From NCBI GenBank assembly GCA_918241715.1, contig CAKJYB010000042.1:1-32363 (forward strand): a stretch of DNA of 32,363 bases, given 5' to 3'. Shown in pieces: positions 2,848 to 15,374 of the stretch. A program made the position numbers and the translations under genes. The notes under the pieces were generated by a model. The model was not told where the DNA came from. It did not search any database and worked only from the letters and a program-made list of their open reading frames with translations. This stretch comes from Clostridiales bacterium (lineage in GTDB: Bacteria > Bacillota > Clostridia > Christensenellales > UBA1242). How positions within the stretch are numbered: the first letter of the stretch is position 1; each line of letters opens with the position of its first letter.

Positions 2848-5800
2848 ATGGAAATAACGCTTGTTAGGGGAGCAACTGCTTTTGAAGCAGGAAAAAGCAC
2901 AATAAAAAAGATTGACACAAAAGACATGACTCAAAAAAACTATGTTGTTGTGCCAGACACTTTTTCTATGCAGGCAGAAAAACTTTTGTTTGACGAACTG
3001 GGAATAAAGGCAACTTTCAACATTGAAGTTGTTGGAATATCAAAACTTGCCAGCAGAATTTTAAGAGAAAACAATGTTGCCTTTGCAAGAATTTCAGGAT
3101 TGGAAGAAGTGTTTAATGTTTTTCAAGCCGTAAAAGAATGTGAGAGTGATTTTAAGTATTTTGAAAAATGCGACATAGAATTTTGCCAAAAAATTTTGGA
3201 AATAATAAAGCAATTTAAGTCTTGCAAGATAAAGCCAGAAAACATCAAACCAACAAAAAATGAATTGTTAAACAACAAGATGCACGATCTCAAACTTGTT
3301 TATGAACATTATGAAAATTTGCTTGGTGAAAAATTTGATTTGTCAAAATTGTTGGAGTATTCCGTCCAAAACGTTCAAAACTTCAAAAACCTTTCAAATT
3401 TAAATCTTTATTTTGTAAATTTTGATAGTTTCTCTCTTGAAATTGGAAATTTTATTTGCAAACTTGCAGAATATGTAAACAAAATTTATATTGGAATGGC
3501 TTATCCACTTTCAGTAAACAATGGATACATTTATGAAGACGACATCAAGTCAAAAATAACAAAACTTGCTGGTGAAAAGGGCGCAAAGCCAAAAGTTGAA
3601 GAAGATTTTTCTCAACCTACCGGAAAGAGAAGAAAGATTGTTGAAAACTTGTTTGGTTTTAGTGTAGAACAAGGAAAGAGTGATTATTTTGTAAACGTTC
3701 TTGCAACAAACAGGCAGGACGAAGTTGATTTTGTTGCAAAATATATCAAAAGAGAAGTGTTTAAGGGCGCAAGATTCAACGATTTTGCTGTTGCAATTTC
3801 AAGTGATACTTATTACGATAAAATCAGAACAACGTTTGAAAAATATGGGATTGTTACATACACGGACGACGCTGTAAATCTTTCGCAGACGATGCTTGGA
3901 AGATTTGTCTTGAAAGTTTTTGAAATTGCAAGGCTTGGGTTTGATATGCCAAACTTACAATGGCTCGTTTCATGCGATTTGCTTGGGGAAGATAAAGAAA
4001 GTTTGCATGACATAAACTTTTATCAAATTGACGACGAAAAAGAGTTTTTGGAAAGACACCAAACGTATAGTTGGATTGTCTCAAAAATAAACAGCCTGAA
4101 AAAGTGCAAGTTGGCACAGGATTACGTTGGTTGCCTTAAAGAACTTGTCGGTTTTGTGGGAGAAAACTACAAAAACATTGTCAACAGACTTGAAGAAGAA
4201 AGATTCTATAAGAAATCAAGCGAAAACACTCAATCACTTGAGCTTATTTCGCAAGTTTTTGAAAAGATTTCAGAGCTTGGTGGAAAACAGGAGTTTTCTG
4301 TTTTTGATTTTGAAAACTTGGTCAAAATTTCTTTGCAAAGTGTCAAAGTTGAAACGATTCCGTCATACATTGATGCTGTTTTTGTTGGCGATGCAACAAA
4401 GAGTTATTTTGAAGACGTAAAAGTTTTGTTTGTTTTGGGCGCCAACGCAAAAGAACTGCCAAAAACGCAGGCCGATACGGGAATTATTGACGACAACGAC
4501 ATCAAGGAACTTAAGTTTAATTATGCCTTAGAGCCGGAAATAAAGGTTTTAAACAGACGTGCAAGACTAAAACTTTTTGAATGTTTGCAACATGCTCAAG
4601 AAAAACTTATTGTTTGTTGCCCATCAGCAGGAGACGACAAGATTTCGCAATTTGTTTTTGACCTTAGAAAAATGTTCGGTGAAAACGTTTTGAACACAGC
4701 AAACATGGGCCTTTCAATTGATTCTGCAAAGAGCAAAAAGGAAAGGTTTGACGATTTGTTGTTGTGTCTTGGAAGTGAAGATAAATTTTTGGAAAATTAT
4801 TCTGCACTTCAGGCAAACAAGATGATTCCTGTAAAACTTGAAGGAATGTTAAAAAGCATTGCTGGAGAATTCCCAAAAGAAAAGGAATATAAATTTATTC
4901 CAAAAGAAGATGCACAGAAACTTTTAAAATCAAAAATTTCTGTTACATCACTTGAGACGTATTTTGCCTGTCCATTTAGATTTTTTGTTGAAAAATCTTT
5001 GGGGGTAAAAGAACTTGAAATATACATGCCTGACAAGAGAAATTTTGGAAGTTTTGAACATGACTTGTTGGAAAATTTTGTTTCACAATACAACCTAAAA
5101 GAAGAAAAAATTGATTGCGTAAACGAATTTTTGAAGAAAAACATGCTGAAAATTGCAAAAAAATATTATGACGAAAAGACTTTAAGCGAAAAATCTTTTG
5201 TGAAATACTTGGAGAACGAAAGCAAAATTATTTTGAAGAATGTGTTGCACGAAGCGAAGTACAGCAAGTTTGTTCCAAAGTATTTTGAATATGGTGTAAG
5301 CAAAAAAGTTGACAAAAATCTGACCTTGTGTGGAATTATTGACAGGGTTGATGTGTTTGAAAACAGATTTAGAGTTCTTGATTACAAAACCGGAGAGCAA
5401 AAGGGAATCAAAGATAGTTTGTTCTGTGGAAAAAAACTTCAACTTTTTATTTATGCGAAAGCGTTGAAAGAACAACTTGGTTTGGACTGCTCCGGAGTTT
5501 ATTATTTTAATTGTCAGACAAAATACAATTCAAAGTCAAAGTTGAAATTGTTGCATGGAATGACCAAAAACGACTATGATGTTGTGGTTGCTTCGGATTA
5601 TAGGCTTGCTGAATATGGGCAAAAAAGTGATATTTTGTCCGTCACAGCAAAGAAGAATCCAAACAAGGGAGAAGAATTCTACGACAGGTCAAAACTTTTG
5701 GTAAAAAATTTTGACAAAACGTTTGATTATGCAGAGAAAATTGCAATAAACGCACATAAGGAAATGCAAGAAGGTTATATTGAAGATAAACCACTTGCCG

Positions 5801-5892
5801 ATTCGTGCAAAAATTGCCCATATATTTCAGTGTGCATGCACAGAGAAGAAGATGGACAGAGAAAAATTTTAAGCGCAAAGGATGTTTTTTAA
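2848..5892 (+). CDS. addB: AddB-like helicase-nuclease subunit, PD-(D/E)XK with Fe-S cysteines
   Basis: GIIDRVD...RVLDYKTGEQKG nuclease motif; CPFRFF upstream plus CKNCPYISVC at C-term (AddB Fe-S staple pattern); followed by addA. Confidence 0.88.
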   Translation: MEITLVRGATAFEAGKSTIKKIDTKDMTQKNYVVVPDTFSMQAEKLLFDELGIKATFNIEVVGISKLASRILRENNVAFARISGLEEVFNVFQAVKECESDFKYFEKCDIEFCQKILEIIKQFKSCKIKPENIKPTKNELLNNKMHDLKLVYEHYENLLGEKFDLSKLLEYSVQNVQNFKNLSNLNLYFVNFDSFSLEIGNFICKLAEYVNKIYIGMAYPLSVNNGYIYEDDIKSKITKLAGEKGAKPKVEEDFSQPTGKRRKIVENLFGFSVEQGKSDYFVNVLATNRQDEVDFVAKYIKREVFKGARFNDFAVAISSDTYYDKIRTTFEKYGIVTYTDDAVNLSQTMLGRFVLKVFEIARLGFDMPNLQWLVSCDLLGEDKESLHDINFYQIDDEKEFLERHQTYSWIVSKINSLKKCKLAQDYVGCLKELVGFVGENYKNIVNRLEEERFYKKSSENTQSLELISQVFEKISELGGKQEFSVFDFENLVKISLQSVKVETIPSYIDAVFVGDATKSYFEDVKVLFVLGANAKELPKTQADTGIIDDNDIKELKFNYALEPEIKVLNRRARLKLFECLQHAQEKLIVCCPSAGDDKISQFVFDLRKMFGENVLNTANMGLSIDSAKSKKERFDDLLLCLGSEDKFLENYSALQANKMIPVKLEGMLKSIAGEFPKEKEYKFIPKEDAQKLLKSKISVTSLETYFACPFRFFVEKSLGVKELEIYMPDKRNFGSFEHDLLENFVSQYNLKEEKIDCVNEFLKKNMLKIAKKYYDEKTLSEKSFVKYLENESKIILKNVLHEAKYSKFVPKYFEYGVSKKVDKNLTLCGIIDRVDVFENRFRVLDYKTGEQKGIKDSLFCGKKLQLFIYAKALKEQLGLDCSGVYYFNCQTKYNSKSKLKLLHGMTKNDYDVVVASDYRLAEYGQKSDILSVTAKKNPNKGEEFYDRSKLLVKNFDKTFDYAEKIAINAHKEMQEGYIEDKPLADSCKNCPYISVCMHREEDGQRKILSAKDVF

Positions 5893-8800
5893 TGGCTGAA
5901 AAGAAAGAAGAGAAGATTCTGGAACAAACCAAAGTTTTGGAAAACAAAAAGAAGAACATGATTGTCAGTGCTTCAGCAGGCAGTGGCAAGACCTTTGTTA
6001 TGATAAAATATGTCACAGAATTGGTTTGTGAAAGAAAAATCCCACTCAAAGACATTGTTGTTTTGACATTTACAAAAGCTGCTGCTGCAGAAATGAAAGA
6101 ACGCTTGGAAAAAAGTCTTAGAAAACAAAAGCAAACGGCCTATGTTGTGGAGCAGATTGACTCTTTGCCAACTGCCAACATCTCAACAATAGACTCTTTT
6201 TGCGAAAAAAATCTTAAAAAATATGCAAATTTGGTTGGTCTTAGTGAAACATTTAGCGTTTTAGATGCAAATTTGGACGAAAAACTGAAAAAGGAAAGTT
6301 TTGACAAGGCAATAAAACTTTTCAAACAAACTGAGCCAGAAAAATATGTTCAACTTGTAGAAATTTTCAAAAACAATATTGGGGAGATAAGAGAAATCGT
6401 CTTTTCAATTGAAAGTTTGGTTGATGTTGTAAGCGACAGGAATGACTTTTTGCAAAAAAATATGAAAAATGCAGAGAGTTATTTTGATAAGGCTGCAGAC
6501 TTTCTTGTTTTGAATTTTAAAAATATGCTAAACAAGATTTTTGAAAAAATCGAAAAACTTCATCTTGTCGAATATGAAAATGCTGTAAGAAAAAATATGG
6601 GAATCATTTTGCAGGCAAAAGATATTTTTGAACTTTGCAGTATTTTAAATAATGTTGAAATGCCAGACAGACCAAAGAAAAAAGATGTTGGTGAGGAAGT
6701 TTTTGATTTGCTCGGGAAACTTAAAGAATTGTTTGAAGGAGAAAAGGAAAAGATTTTAGACCTTGATCTTCTTGACAATCAAAAGGCAAAAATGCAGAGA
6801 GAAGGCATTTTGGAAAAGAGCTTTTTAAGTTTGTTTTTGGCTTATGAAAAAATTGAAAGCGAAACAAAACTTGCAAGAAATTGTTTAAGTTTTTCTGATC
6901 TTTCAAAATTTATGGTCAAACTTTCAGAAAAAGAAAATCTGTTTGGAAATGTCAAGTATGTTTTTATTGACGAATATCAAGATACAAGCAAAATTCAAGA
7001 GAGAATTGTAAAAAATATCGCAAAAAACTGCAATTTTGTTGCTGTTGGTGATGTGAAACAGGGAATATACGGCTTTAGATTGGCTGACAGCGAAATCTTT
7101 TTGAAAGATGTAAAAGATTTTGATGAAAACGAAGATTCGGCAGTGAATTATCTTAAAGAAAACTTTAGAAGTGATGAAAGAGTGTTGAACTTTATCAACA
7201 AAGTTTTTGATGTTTGCATGAGAGAAGAAAATACCGGAGTTGAATACAAAAAAGACGCAGATCTTCACGCTTTCCACAGATTTAAGAATGACGGAAGCAA
7301 GGCTGTAACAATTCATGTTGTAAAGGAAGAAAAACCAGAAGAAGAAACTTTGCCGGAACTTTACAGCGTAAAAAATGCAAAAATTGAGTTGAAAAACTCA
7401 GACCTAAAGCAAATGCTTGACATAAGAGAGCAAATTTTTGTTGCAAGAAAAACCAAGATTTATGAAGACGAAGAGTTTAGAGATTGCAAATTTGGTGATA
7501 TTGCAATTTTGAGCAGAAGCAGAAGTGATTTGTATTTTTGTCTTGAAGAGTTTTTGATTGAAAGTGGGATTCCTGTTGGCACAGACTCTAAGAAAAAACT
7601 TTTAGACGAAGTAGAAATAAAAGTGCTTTTAAACTTTTTAAAAATTTCTCTTATCATGGAAGACGATATTGCAACTCTTTCCGTTTTGCTTTCTCCAATT
7701 GGTGGATTTACTCTTGAAGAAATTATAAAAGAAAAGGGGACACAGACCATTTGTGAAATGGTGCAAAATAATCAAAAATTTGCATCCGTAATCAAAAAAA
7801 TTGAAGATTTTAAAAGAAATATGTCTGTTTTTGGTGCAAAAAAAGCGTTTGATTTGTTGTTTATTGAAACAAAGTATAGGTCATATTTAAATTCTAAACA
7901 AGACTTCAAAATGGTAAACGAATTTGTTGACGCCTTTCTTCAAAACGTTCAAGAGTGTGGATTTGAATATGATTTGCCATCTCTTATAAATTATTTTGAA
8001 AACGTTGACATTGATGTTGAAAATTTGGGGCAAGTCCAAGACGGCGTAATTTTGGAGACCATACACGCAAGCAAGGGGCTTGAATATCCGGTTGTCTTTT
8101 TGATTGGTTGTGATAAAGATTTCATGAAAGTTTCGGGCAAAGAAAATCGAAACGTAAGAATTGACGAAAACTTTGGCTTCGCCGTAAAAGATTTTAATGT
8201 TGACGAAAACGAAAATTCCACAAGCGTAAGAATGCTTGCAATAAAGCAACTTGAAAAAAGAAAACGTTTTAGAGACGAATTGATGATTTTTTATGTTGCT
8301 CTCACCAGAGCAAAGAACAAACTTGTTTTGTTTGGAAAGTATGATGCAAAAATCTTTGAGAAGAAAAACCTTGATGAGTGCAAGACATACTTTGACCTTG
8401 TTTTCAACGCATGCGACGACATGAGACGGGCGCTTCAAAATGACGAAAAATACGAAGATGTGGACGTTGAAGCACATGTTGTAAATGACGTGATTTTAAA
8501 AGAAATAGAAAAAGAAGATGTGGAGAAAAACCCAGAGTTCGAGACAAGTTGTGTGGCAAAGATTAAAGAATATTTGGGGTTTGACTATAAATATGATGAT
8601 AAGTTGAACTTCAAACTTAAAGAAGGGGTAACAAGTCTCAACTTGAAAAATCTTGAAAACAACCTTGAGAAATATTCAAACGAAAACTTCAGTTTTGTCG
8701 GTGCTGGTGTTGAAATTGGAAACGCATATCACTTGGCGATGGAAAATCTTGACTTTGAAAAGATTGACAGCGTTGACGACATAAAAAGACAGATAGAGCA

Positions 8801-9197
8801 GATGTCCGCGTTGTTTGATGGAACTGAAAAACTTTTGAATTATGGGGTTTTGCTTGAAAACATAAAACTTGTAAAGAGTGTTGTTTCGGGGGCAACTCTA
8901 TATAAAGAAAAAAGGTTTATCATGAAAGAAAAACTCTGCAACCTTTTGGAAGGTGTGGAATATGACGACAAGATATTGCTTCAGGGTGCAGTGGATTTGT
9001 TTGCAGTGAAAAAGGACGAAGTTGTTTTGATAGATTATAAATATTCAAATTCGACCGATAAAAATTATTTGATAAATAAATACAAAAATCAAATTAAATT
9101 TTACAAAATGGCAATAGAAAACGCCTTTAATTTGCCTGTTAAAAATGCATATTTATTGTCATTAAAACACGCAGAATTGATTAAAGTTGAAGTTTAA
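5892..9197 (+). CDS. addA: AddA helicase-nuclease (UvrD/RecB-like)
   Basis: ATG at 5892 overlaps addB stop by 1 nt (TAATG); SASAGSGKT Walker A, FIDEYQDTS, GDVKQGIYGFR, VALTRAKNKL, C-terminal VLIDYKYS. The ORF-track start 5805 is an in-frame extension. Confidence 0.93.
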   Translation: MAEKKEEKILEQTKVLENKKKNMIVSASAGSGKTFVMIKYVTELVCERKIPLKDIVVLTFTKAAAAEMKERLEKSLRKQKQTAYVVEQIDSLPTANISTIDSFCEKNLKKYANLVGLSETFSVLDANLDEKLKKESFDKAIKLFKQTEPEKYVQLVEIFKNNIGEIREIVFSIESLVDVVSDRNDFLQKNMKNAESYFDKAADFLVLNFKNMLNKIFEKIEKLHLVEYENAVRKNMGIILQAKDIFELCSILNNVEMPDRPKKKDVGEEVFDLLGKLKELFEGEKEKILDLDLLDNQKAKMQREGILEKSFLSLFLAYEKIESETKLARNCLSFSDLSKFMVKLSEKENLFGNVKYVFIDEYQDTSKIQERIVKNIAKNCNFVAVGDVKQGIYGFRLADSEIFLKDVKDFDENEDSAVNYLKENFRSDERVLNFINKVFDVCMREENTGVEYKKDADLHAFHRFKNDGSKAVTIHVVKEEKPEEETLPELYSVKNAKIELKNSDLKQMLDIREQIFVARKTKIYEDEEFRDCKFGDIAILSRSRSDLYFCLEEFLIESGIPVGTDSKKKLLDEVEIKVLLNFLKISLIMEDDIATLSVLLSPIGGFTLEEIIKEKGTQTICEMVQNNQKFASVIKKIEDFKRNMSVFGAKKAFDLLFIETKYRSYLNSKQDFKMVNEFVDAFLQNVQECGFEYDLPSLINYFENVDIDVENLGQVQDGVILETIHASKGLEYPVVFLIGCDKDFMKVSGKENRNVRIDENFGFAVKDFNVDENENSTSVRMLAIKQLEKRKRFRDELMIFYVALTRAKNKLVLFGKYDAKIFEKKNLDECKTYFDLVFNACDDMRRALQNDEKYEDVDVEAHVVNDVILKEIEKEDVEKNPEFETSCVAKIKEYLGFDYKYDDKLNFKLKEGVTSLNLKNLENNLEKYSNENFSFVGAGVEIGNAYHLAMENLDFEKIDSVDDIKRQIEQMSALFDGTEKLLNYGVLLENIKLVKSVVSGATLYKEKRFIMKEKLCNLLEGVEYDDKILLQGAVDLFAVKKDEVVLIDYKYSNSTDKNYLINKYKNQIKFYKMAIENAFNLPVKNAYLLSLKHAELIKVEV

Positions 9198-9327
9198 AAA
9201 GGGAAAAATATTATAAGAAAAAGTGACATTTTTGGTTGCTTTTTCTCTTTTTGTTTTACGGACGAAAAAATGTTTTAAAAATATTTAAAAAATTATTAAA
9301 AAATGTTAGTAAATATTTTTTTGATTG

Positions 9328-9336
9328 TGATATACT
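9328..9336 (+). promoter_or_regulatory. extended -10 TGA.TATACT upstream of the AT-hook gene
   Basis: TTGTGATATACT, about 23 nt before ATG, SD between; no good -35. Confidence 0.45.
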
Positions 9337-9358
9337 ACAAATGTATATAGGAGGCTTT

Positions 9359-12043
9359 ATGAATTCGATGGGATTAAGCATTGTAGAAAATGTTGTAAAA
9401 TTTCTCACCAACGTAACAAGCAAACTTGGTATTGACTTGTTGTTTGTTATTGCTCTTGGCGTGGAAGTTTTGTTTGTTTTGTTCTATCTGATTAGATCTG
9501 CTTCGTCTTACGAAGTATCTTTAAATCGTGCATTGAACAAAATAAATTATTGGCTTTTTGAAAAGAAACATGTTACAGAAGAAAACATTAGAAGTTTGAA
9601 TGTTCTTTTCAAAACAAAGGCACCAAAAAGATTGACATATTATTGGCATCAATACGTTTTGTTTAGAGAAGGTGTTCCATCAAGTTATTTCACAGCAGAA
9701 AACTTGATTGAAAAACCAACAAAGACAAGTTCGTATAAAGCAAACATCAGAAAACTTGGAATCTTCTCCGGCTTCTGGGCTGCATTCGCTGCACTTTTCA
9801 TTCTTATCTTTGAAGGAAGAAACGGGGCTGCAGACACAGTGCTTAAAGGTTCGGTTTTGATTGAAGCAGTTTTGCTTGCTGTTGCAGTTGGACTTATTGG
9901 AATCTTGTTTATGCTCTTTATGAGTGCAAGAAGAAACAGCGTTTTGAATTCACTTTATCAAAATGTAAGTTTGTTTGACAGATTTATGGATAACGCCTGC
10001 ACAGATCTTCCATCATATATTGACTATCAAATCTTGTTTACTCCTGCCGAAATTGAAAAAGGCCAACCAGTTTTGAGAGAGTTCTTGGATTTTAAAGCAA
10101 GAAAAGAAAAGGAAGAATTCACAAAAGCAAAAGAAGAGCAAATCGATTATGTTACATACGACTTTAGCTCAACAGGTGTTGATGGCTCAGTTGTTCTTGA
10201 AAGAGCAATGAGAGAAAGTGAAAAGTTCTTGAAGAAGAGAGAAAAACTTCTTGTTCAGGTTTCACAACTTGAAGCAGAACTTGATTCAAGAAAGAAAAAC
10301 TTTGACAACATTCAAAGAGAATCTCAAACAAAGATTCAAGCATCTAAAGAAAACATTCAAAGACTCCGTCAGATGCAAGAAGAAACAACAAACAGAATTG
10401 AAAGCAACTACTATAGAAAACAACAAACTCAAGAAGCTGCAAAACAAGAGCAGTTGGAACAAGAGTTTGAACAACAAAGAGCAAAATACTTGCTTGAAAA
10501 AGGTGAGTGTGAAGAAGAGATTGCAAAACTTAATGCTGACCTTGAAAAGTATAGACTTGATGTTGAAAACGCAATGCTCAATGAATATAAGACATTCTTT
10601 GATAAGTTCTGCCACAGCGCTGAAAAAGTTGTTGCAAAAGTGTTTGACGAAAAGTTTAACGAAATGAAAGGTCAAATCGAACAAGACAAGCGCACAATTA
10701 CAGAACTTGAAATCAAGACAAAAAATATCCCTGCTCCACCAGAAGATTTGGGACAACAGATGCTTGGGGAATACGACGCCGAAGGAAATTATGTATATCC
10801 AAACGGAACATTCTATGACAGAAACGGAAACTTCCATGACGAAGAAGGAAGAATCTTTGCTCAAGATGGAACACTCTTGTATCTTCCAGAAGAGCCAAAA
10901 GAAGAAAAGCCAAAATCATTTGTTGATTTGGACGAACTTGATTCATTTGAATTTATGACAGATGTTGCTCAAAAGAATGACATTTATGATGTGGCAACAA
11001 ATGTTGTAAACGAAGTTGATAAAGACGAAGATATCGAAGTTATCAACAGCGCAAAAGAAAGAGAAAAGGCTGCTGCAGAAGCTGAAGCTGCCAAAGTTGA
11101 AGAAGAAAAGCCTGTTGAAGCAAAATTTGAAAACTTCTCACTTGATGCAGAAGAAGCTCCACAGGAAGTTCCACAAGAACAGCCACAACCAGAGACCGAA
11201 GAACCACAAGAAGAAGAGCCTGCACCTGCAGAACCAGAAGAAGAACAGGAAGAGCCAGAAGAAGTCGAAGACGAAGAACCTGAAGAAAACGACTATGAAT
11301 ATGAAGAAGAAGTTATCGAACATGATGGCCGTCCAAGAAAGATTGTCAAAGAAGAAGACAAACCTGTAAGAAAACCAGGTCGTCCAAGAAAAGCTGTTGT
11401 TGCGAAAGCTTCAGCAAGAAAACCGGGCAGACCAAAAAAGGTTGAAACAAAAAAACCTGCAAGAAAACCTGGTAGACCTAAGAAAGTTGAGCCAGTAAGA
11501 AAACCAGGCAGACCAAAAAAGGTTGAAACAAAACCAGTAAGAGCAGTTGGTCGTCCAAGAAAAGTTGAAACGGCAAAGGCTCCAGCAAGAAAGCCGGGCA
11601 GACCAAAAAAAGTTGTTGAAGCTCCAAAGGCTCCAGCAAGAAAACCGGGCAGACCTAAGAAAGTAGAAACAAAGGCACCAGTTGCAACAAAGAAGGTTGG
11701 CCGTCCAAAGAAAGTTGTTGAAGAACCACAAGAAGTTCGTGGACGTGGCAGACCAAGAAAAGAATCTTTAAACGAAATCAACAAGCGTTTGTCAGCAGAA
11801 GAACAAAAACTTGCACAAATGAGAAAGATTTTAAACAGAGAGCTTGAAGATGCAATGGTTGGAGTAAATTCTACAAAGACAACAGGAAATAACCAAGACA
11901 GAAGAAGTCAAATCATGAAAGAAATTGACGATCTTCAAAAAGAAGCTCAAAAAGTTATGAAGTCAAACGGCTCTCAAGAAAAGATGGCCGAAATCAACGA
12001 AAAACTTGAAAGACTTTTAAATGAAATTCAAAACTTGGGTTAA
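9359..12043 (+). CDS. membrane-anchored coiled-coil protein with EAGR-like segment, acidic/Pro-rich region and AT-hook array (~894 aa)
   Basis: SD TAGGAGG then ATG 9359 (in frame with ORF-track 9236); three hydrophobic N-terminal segments; long coiled coil; ten GRP[RK]K cores. Confidence 0.85.
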   Translation: MNSMGLSIVENVVKFLTNVTSKLGIDLLFVIALGVEVLFVLFYLIRSASSYEVSLNRALNKINYWLFEKKHVTEENIRSLNVLFKTKAPKRLTYYWHQYVLFREGVPSSYFTAENLIEKPTKTSSYKANIRKLGIFSGFWAAFAALFILIFEGRNGAADTVLKGSVLIEAVLLAVAVGLIGILFMLFMSARRNSVLNSLYQNVSLFDRFMDNACTDLPSYIDYQILFTPAEIEKGQPVLREFLDFKARKEKEEFTKAKEEQIDYVTYDFSSTGVDGSVVLERAMRESEKFLKKREKLLVQVSQLEAELDSRKKNFDNIQRESQTKIQASKENIQRLRQMQEETTNRIESNYYRKQQTQEAAKQEQLEQEFEQQRAKYLLEKGECEEEIAKLNADLEKYRLDVENAMLNEYKTFFDKFCHSAEKVVAKVFDEKFNEMKGQIEQDKRTITELEIKTKNIPAPPEDLGQQMLGEYDAEGNYVYPNGTFYDRNGNFHDEEGRIFAQDGTLLYLPEEPKEEKPKSFVDLDELDSFEFMTDVAQKNDIYDVATNVVNEVDKDEDIEVINSAKEREKAAAEAEAAKVEEEKPVEAKFENFSLDAEEAPQEVPQEQPQPETEEPQEEEPAPAEPEEEQEEPEEVEDEEPEENDYEYEEEVIEHDGRPRKIVKEEDKPVRKPGRPRKAVVAKASARKPGRPKKVETKKPARKPGRPKKVEPVRKPGRPKKVETKPVRAVGRPRKVETAKAPARKPGRPKKVVEAPKAPARKPGRPKKVETKAPVATKKVGRPKKVVEEPQEVRGRGRPRKESLNEINKRLSAEEQKLAQMRKILNRELEDAMVGVNSTKTTGNNQDRRSQIMKEIDDLQKEAQKVMKSNGSQEKMAEINEKLERLLNEIQNLG
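11320..11766 (+). repeat. degenerate tandem array encoding AT-hook units (R)KPGRP[KR]KVE..
   Basis: 10 copies of GRP[RK]K by reading the translation. Confidence 0.85.
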
Positions 12044-12085: not shown

Positions 12086-12385
12086 TTAGAATGGCCAAAA
12101 CTCAATCCAGCCTTTTGCCAATCCCCAAATTGTAAAGGCGAATGCTGCAATAATGCAAAGCATGCTCAAAAAGTAAAAGAGTTTTGCAAAGCCTTGATTT
12201 CCTGCTCTTTTTTGGTAGCCACCTGTAAACATGAGTGCCAAACCAACAAAAAACAAAATGTAAGTTAAAACAAGGAAGTTATCCAAAAACTTTATTGCGT
12301 GAAAGATGTAGATAACTGAAAAGCCAATTGCTACGGCGCTGCAAACAAGAGCCATTATTAAGTTTTTTTTCTGAACTCTGTCCAT
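12086..12385 (-). CDS. small integral membrane protein (99 aa, about three TM segments)
   Basis: start chosen at MDRVQKKN (ATG 12385) because the promoter -10 lies at 12409-12414, leaving the ORF-track ATG (12406) upstream of the expected start of transcription. Confidence 0.65.
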   Translation of the reverse strand: MDRVQKKNLIMALVCSAVAIGFSVIYIFHAIKFLDNFLVLTYILFFVGLALMFTGGYQKRAGNQGFAKLFYFLSMLCIIAAFAFTIWGLAKGWIEFWPF

Positions 12386-12408
12386 AAAACCACTCACTTT
12401 ATACATAT

Positions 12409-15276: not shown

Positions 15277-15300
15277 GTTGGTGCATACTGCACCACTTGT

Positions 15301-15374
15301 GCGGGTGTAGTACATCGGTAGTATGCGAGCTTCCCAAGCTTGAGAGGTGGGTCCGACTCCCATCATCCGCTCCA
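15301..15374 (+). tRNA. tRNA-Gly(CCC), CCA encoded
   Basis: acceptor GCGGGTG/CATCCGC, D arm GTAC/GTAT, anticodon loop TT-CCC-AA, T stem GTGGG/CCCAT, 3' TCCA. Confidence 0.92.

Follow-up and report, generated by a model that had tools for sequence, protein, structure and literature searches.

The open reading frame at positions 9359..12043 (+ strand) of the window, by which we mean the whole 32,363-nucleotide stretch of DNA analysed, encodes an 894-aa membrane-anchored multi-AT-hook protein that probably ties DNA, and perhaps DNA repair, to the cell membrane of a gut bacterium of the order Christensenellales. We give a probability of about 0.5 to the reading that it is a multivalent DNA tether anchored in the membrane, with a functional link to repair by AddAB. 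To our knowledge, few bacterial proteins are known to hold DNA at the membrane. The conserved membrane family described here lacks annotation and is tied to addBA in many families of the order; it offers a concrete case in which repair at the membrane, or anchoring of the nucleoid there, can be tested, and its putative DNA-capture tail is confined to one lineage.

The frame is conserved, opens with ATG at 9359 behind a ribosome-binding site (AGGAGG, 9349-9354) and closes with a stop codon at 12041-12043; all of its parts lie on the + strand. The membrane domain (9431..9928) has a ZorA/ExbB/TolQ-like fold as judged from hydropathy, the AlphaFold2 (AF2) model, Foldseek and hhalign, and consists of TM1 (9431-9496), a cytoplasmic helical loop, TM2 (9755-9829) and TM3 (9857-9928), the hydrophobic segments being at residues ~25-46, 133-157 and 167-190 of the protein. 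A coiled-coil stalk follows (10184..10723; AF2 helices at model residues 273-339 and 343-452), and between it and the linker lies a beta-like repeat module (10766..10882, model residues 467-505; G-x-Y-D-x-x-G-N-Y-V-Y...) that has conserved columns in the family, shows short strands in the model and is possibly a candidate protein-binding module. Its pattern may be written as 'G.YDE.GNYVY.NGTYYD..GNFHD'; it is present in two copies in one family member and has no Pfam name. Next come an acidic, Pro-rich linker (11084..11347), taken as disordered from its composition and low pLDDT, the AT-hook array (11318..11764) and a C-terminal helical module (11768..12037; AF2 helices 801-834, 839-865 and 870-890), residues ~573-800 having no confident order in the model. 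The C-terminal module is common to the short and long members of the family; the idea that the rest of the order shares it gained no support on comparison. The first-pass annotation had described three N-terminal hydrophobic segments, a coiled coil, an acidic/Pro-rich linker and final helices, all of which are confirmed by hydropathy, composition and AF2, and had overlooked the beta-like module, the ZorA/ExbB/TolQ fold and the addA linkage.

The linkage is with addB (2848..5892, +; Pfam ADDB_N, 1.4e-24, and PDDEXK_1) and, directly upstream, addA (5892..9197, +; Pfam UvrD-helicase and PDDEXK_1). Upstream DNA was sufficient in 99 family loci; addA was directly upstream on the same strand in 93 of them, and addB was found upstream of addA in most. 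In two loci (L178 and L179) the gene is not adjacent to addA. Homologues from ten further families of the order lie right behind addA in 30 of the 34 loci sampled. The genes downstream vary between genera. Three of the four genus genomes without the AT-hook gene also have no addA (G003, G012 and G176). In G176, which is 100% complete, the window's AddA finds no AddA- or UvrD-type match, as opposed to at least partial PcrA/UvrD-type matches in its relatives. Of the genomes that have addA, G008 carries an exonuclease-like gene behind it instead of the AT-hook gene, and G064 and G094 have no AT-hook gene at that place. It may also be noted that the window includes housekeeping genes such as recO, and that two ORFs between recO and addB (1142-2005, -, and 2091-2807, +) have no Pfam match. 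On the other side of the AT-hook gene, a 106-aa small membrane protein (12086-12406, -) is the downstream neighbour in ~30 genus loci and again has no Pfam match. Further downstream, the start given for the ORF at 15297 is probably misplaced, since a predicted tRNA-Gly (15301-15374) overlaps it.

The protein was matched in 59 of the 61 genus genomes; one of these matches, the weak one in G003 (1573 aa), was rejected as an unrelated coiled-coil protein. With a membrane-domain profile it was found in 105 of 149 family genomes, covering 32 of the 42 family genera, and a profile of the same depth gave no match elsewhere among 292 genomes of the class. A deeper profile (A7), run on 297 genomes of the order, located the membrane domain in 88 of them, and in one genome overlooked by the first profile (G083) a homologue is present behind addA. 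Since a relative was found in Candidatus Caccovivens faecavium, which belongs to GTDB family UBA1242 of the order Christensenellales (PMC8035907), the host family of the AT-hook protein is probably UBA1242. The homologues outside the family are mostly 275-600 aa long. The architecture is conserved within the family. Hooks are, however, absent from all sampled members outside the family and from several genera inside it, and the first-pass annotation had named such hook-less homologues as counting against its reading. From these sequence comparisons the hooks appear to be a lineage-specific addition, in one family, to a wider AddAB-associated membrane protein. In a broader reading, which we hold only tentatively, a partner-less ZorA/ExbB-type ring is an order-wide AddAB membrane platform to which one lineage has added an AT-hook or histone-H1-like DNA-capture tail. 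If so, break processing (or the degradation of foreign DNA) would be a membrane-based activity, and the ZorA/ExbB fold would be seen in use without a motor partner.

The transcription signals bear on how close the tie to addA is. A terminator-like hairpin is present after addA (9216..9246, +; consensus scan, 1 found vs 0.0 in shuffles), followed by a promoter-like element, TTAGTA...TGTGATATACTA (9306..9337, +). This element has the form TTAGTA-N19-TATACT with the extended -10 pattern TGTGATATACTA, is near-invariant in 70 of 72 genus upstream regions, and in its genus form before the AT-hook gene reads TTAGTA...TGTGnTATACTA. Together the hairpin and the conserved element indicate that the gene is probably transcribed on its own, so that addA and the AT-hook gene need not be co-expressed. 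These signals favour a general tether between nucleoid and membrane that would act in chromosome organisation or segregation in the manner of RocS, Noc or RacA; the addA neighbourhood would then be inherited gene order with no functional link. The series of anchor, coiled coil and DNA-binding end also resembles RocS in outline (PMC11500499). Yet a fast-evolving protein keeps its place behind addA across many families while the downstream genes change, and the gene and addA are jointly missing in three genus genomes, which makes a role detached from AddAB doubtful in our view.

The orientation of the protein in the membrane is supported by computation. In 45 of 46 members Lys/Arg residues are more numerous in the TM1-TM2 loop than in the outside segments (median 14 vs 1), and this positive-inside pattern places the N-terminus out and the tail in. 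Residues 1-340 were modelled by AF2 (pLDDT 85, pTM 0.61) and the model was compared by Foldseek with the PDB, where ZorA was the best match (E=4.4e-5), followed by ExbB and TolQ, at modest TM-scores of 0.43-0.48 of the ZorA chain. The model, Foldseek and the charge pattern thus agree on three TM helices with a loop and a tail in the cytoplasm, the fold known from MotA/TolQ/ExbB, and the fold by itself also implies a cytoplasmic tail. The hooks are therefore predicted to lie on the cytoplasmic side, as the tether proposed in the first-pass annotation presupposes. On aligning an order-wide membrane-domain profile (A8) by hhalign with a profile (A5) of ExbB-like proteins from the same order that have long tails and, with one exception, exceed the PF01618 cut-off, we obtained P=1.6e-8 and a probability of 95%, with the alignment spanning all three TM helices. 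Reversed and locally shuffled controls gave P values no better than 0.017, and the signal was retained (P=3e-8) without the members of this family. Of the profiles tried, only the deeper ones, A7 and A8, show the signal to ExbB-like proteins; a genus-only profile (A3) gave none against the ExbB groups, nor was there a signal against a flagellar-type MotA profile (A6). By the A8-A5 result, the membrane domain is distantly homologous to the MotA/TolQ/ExbB superfamily. PF01618 itself had no match in the members scanned and none in the family genomes. Searches of the membrane domain with Pfam, NCBIfam and PADLOC gave no convincing family; the PADLOC matches to LmuB and ZorA3 were weak and both vanished once the coil was left out, and sequence searches of the PDB returned only coiled-coil or chance matches.

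The resemblance to ZorA raises the case of a Zorya-like anti-phage module, in which a ZorA-like protein would catch incoming DNA at the membrane and pass it to the AddAB helicase-nuclease. AddAB degrades linear DNA, and ZorA is the best structural match. Zorya, too, couples the ZorA tail with nuclease effectors (PMC11890865). We nevertheless consider such a module unlikely: no ZorB, MotB or ExbD partner was found in 19 genus genomes, the PADLOC matches are weak, and the gene is near-universal in the genus and placed among housekeeping genes (recO), as opposed to the patchy occurrence of defence systems.

Coming to the array itself, we count ten GRP[RK]K cores, as first reported, far above what shuffling yields. 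The hook region holds 9 of these, whereas 20,000 shuffles of it with composition kept gave a mean of 0.1 cores and a maximum of 2. The core at residue 657 (EHDGRPRKI), the first in the array, is set in acidic sequence and lacks basic flanks, which makes it a poor hook; the other nine have good AT-hook flanks. An exact KPGRPKK is found in only five of the ten, so the earlier 'mostly KPGRPKK' is an overstatement. The hook copies differ in codons and Tandem Repeats Finder did not detect the array, which argues against a fresh DNA duplication. The Pfam AT_hook (PF02178) cut-off was exceeded in 9 of the 13 genus genomes searched (21.5 bits in the window's own genome, with neighbours). All Pfam AT-hook matches in the window's genome and in those of its genus relatives fall in this single ORF, and eight other families of the order gave none. 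Two or more GRP cores were found in 88 of the 93 complete members surveyed (2-11 hooks each), and for most of the closest members in the genus the last hook lies 97-100 residues before the C-terminus. The cores hold invariant or near-invariant columns amid a variable, disordered region, and five very short, divergent members that have lost the long coil retain one or two hooks. Seven hook-less members from several genera, and one further member without hooks, from the genus set (L154), have instead histone-H1-like tails rich in Lys/Ala/Ser/Thr/Pro; a strongly basic tail is missing in a few family members. The genome had been taken to be markedly AT-rich, but the window, at 35% GC, is only moderately so. 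The median GC is 34% in the loci of the family vs 48% in the other families sampled; this agrees with a minor-groove AT binder and proves nothing.

One may ask if the repeats merely resemble AT-hooks and bind RNA, ribosomes, acidic proteins or the protein's own acidic linker. The strongly acidic linker does adjoin the array, and the number of hooks, from 2 to 11, shows no correlation with local GC content (Spearman rho 0.03). Against this, both the exact GRP[RK] core and how far it lies from the C-terminus are conserved while the linkers change, Pfam recognises the hooks in most of the genus genomes searched, and the H1-like replacement tails suggest the same type of ligand, which leaves a non-DNA ligand very unlikely. 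Finally, a functional ion-driven motor whose B subunit has escaped recognition and whose tail pulls or senses DNA would suit the ZorA/ExbB/TolQ fold and is highly improbable, because TM2 and TM3 have no conserved Ser/Thr/Asp/Glu as channel residues and the known B-subunit families (MotB_plug PF13677, OmpA PF00691, ExbD PF02472) are absent from the 19 genus genomes.

For the preferred reading, an AddAB-linked tether, we envisage the following. The three-helix ZorA/ExbB/TolQ-type domain holds the protein in the cytoplasmic membrane and, by analogy with proteins of that fold, may serve as a ring-like anchor, probably of about five subunits. The coiled-coil stalk and disordered linker would extend into the cytoplasm, where the AT-hooks, going by motif identity and conservation, would bind the AT-rich minor groove at many points and keep DNA at the membrane. 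In this way DNA ends, or the nearby nucleoid, could be kept at a membrane site of break processing by AddAB, with which the protein may be in contact. That hooks are kept across the family or swapped for other basic tails fits a membrane-DNA tether, and as the gene is the usual addBA neighbour across many families of the order, such a tether most likely serves AddAB. The retention of hooks (88/93), the restriction of AT-hook matches to this ORF, the H1-like replacements, the topology, the fold, the addA adjacency and the joint absence with addA count for this reading; the separate promoter and hairpin, the three genomes having addA without the gene, the two loci with the gene away from addA, the hook-less homologues and the tails that are not strongly basic count against it. 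The tether first proposed is thus in keeping with the architecture, topology and persistence of the hooks; its role as simple genome compaction is not, as the domain belongs to an order-wide family behind addBA.

Among known systems, ZorA of Zorya, of the MotA/TolQ/ExbB superfamily, has a three-TM fold, N-out, with a long helical cytoplasmic tail (PMC11890865), and the AT-hook protein is like it in all these features. Unlike ZorA, it has no PF01618 match, ZorB-type partner or conserved channel residues, and its tail ends in AT-hooks; of the Zorya set (ZorA + ZorB + ZorC/ZorD or ZorE), no ZorB-type gene and only weak ZorA3 matches were found. RocS, Noc and RacA are membrane-DNA tethers, RocS with a coiled coil between its ends (PMC11500499, PMC4331003, PMC6593407). 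The protein here similarly has one end on the membrane and the other proposed to bind DNA, with a coiled coil as in RocS, but uses a polytopic anchor instead of an amphipathic helix and an AT-hook array, with no HTH/ParB-type DNA-binding domain by Pfam. As for AddAB/RecBCD-type repair operons, no membrane partner of AddAB, AddAB-membrane link or bacterial membrane-anchored AT-hook protein was found in the literature searched, which lay mostly outside subscription journals; in Christensenellales the gene or its hook-less homologue is the usual neighbour downstream of addA. With HMGA, other multi-AT-hook proteins and Myxococcus CarD (PMC4374960 and general knowledge), the protein shares the repeated (K/R)xGRP(R/K)K beside an acidic region; it differs from HMGA and CarD in that the CarD domain was not found in it and in that its hooks are anchored to the membrane.
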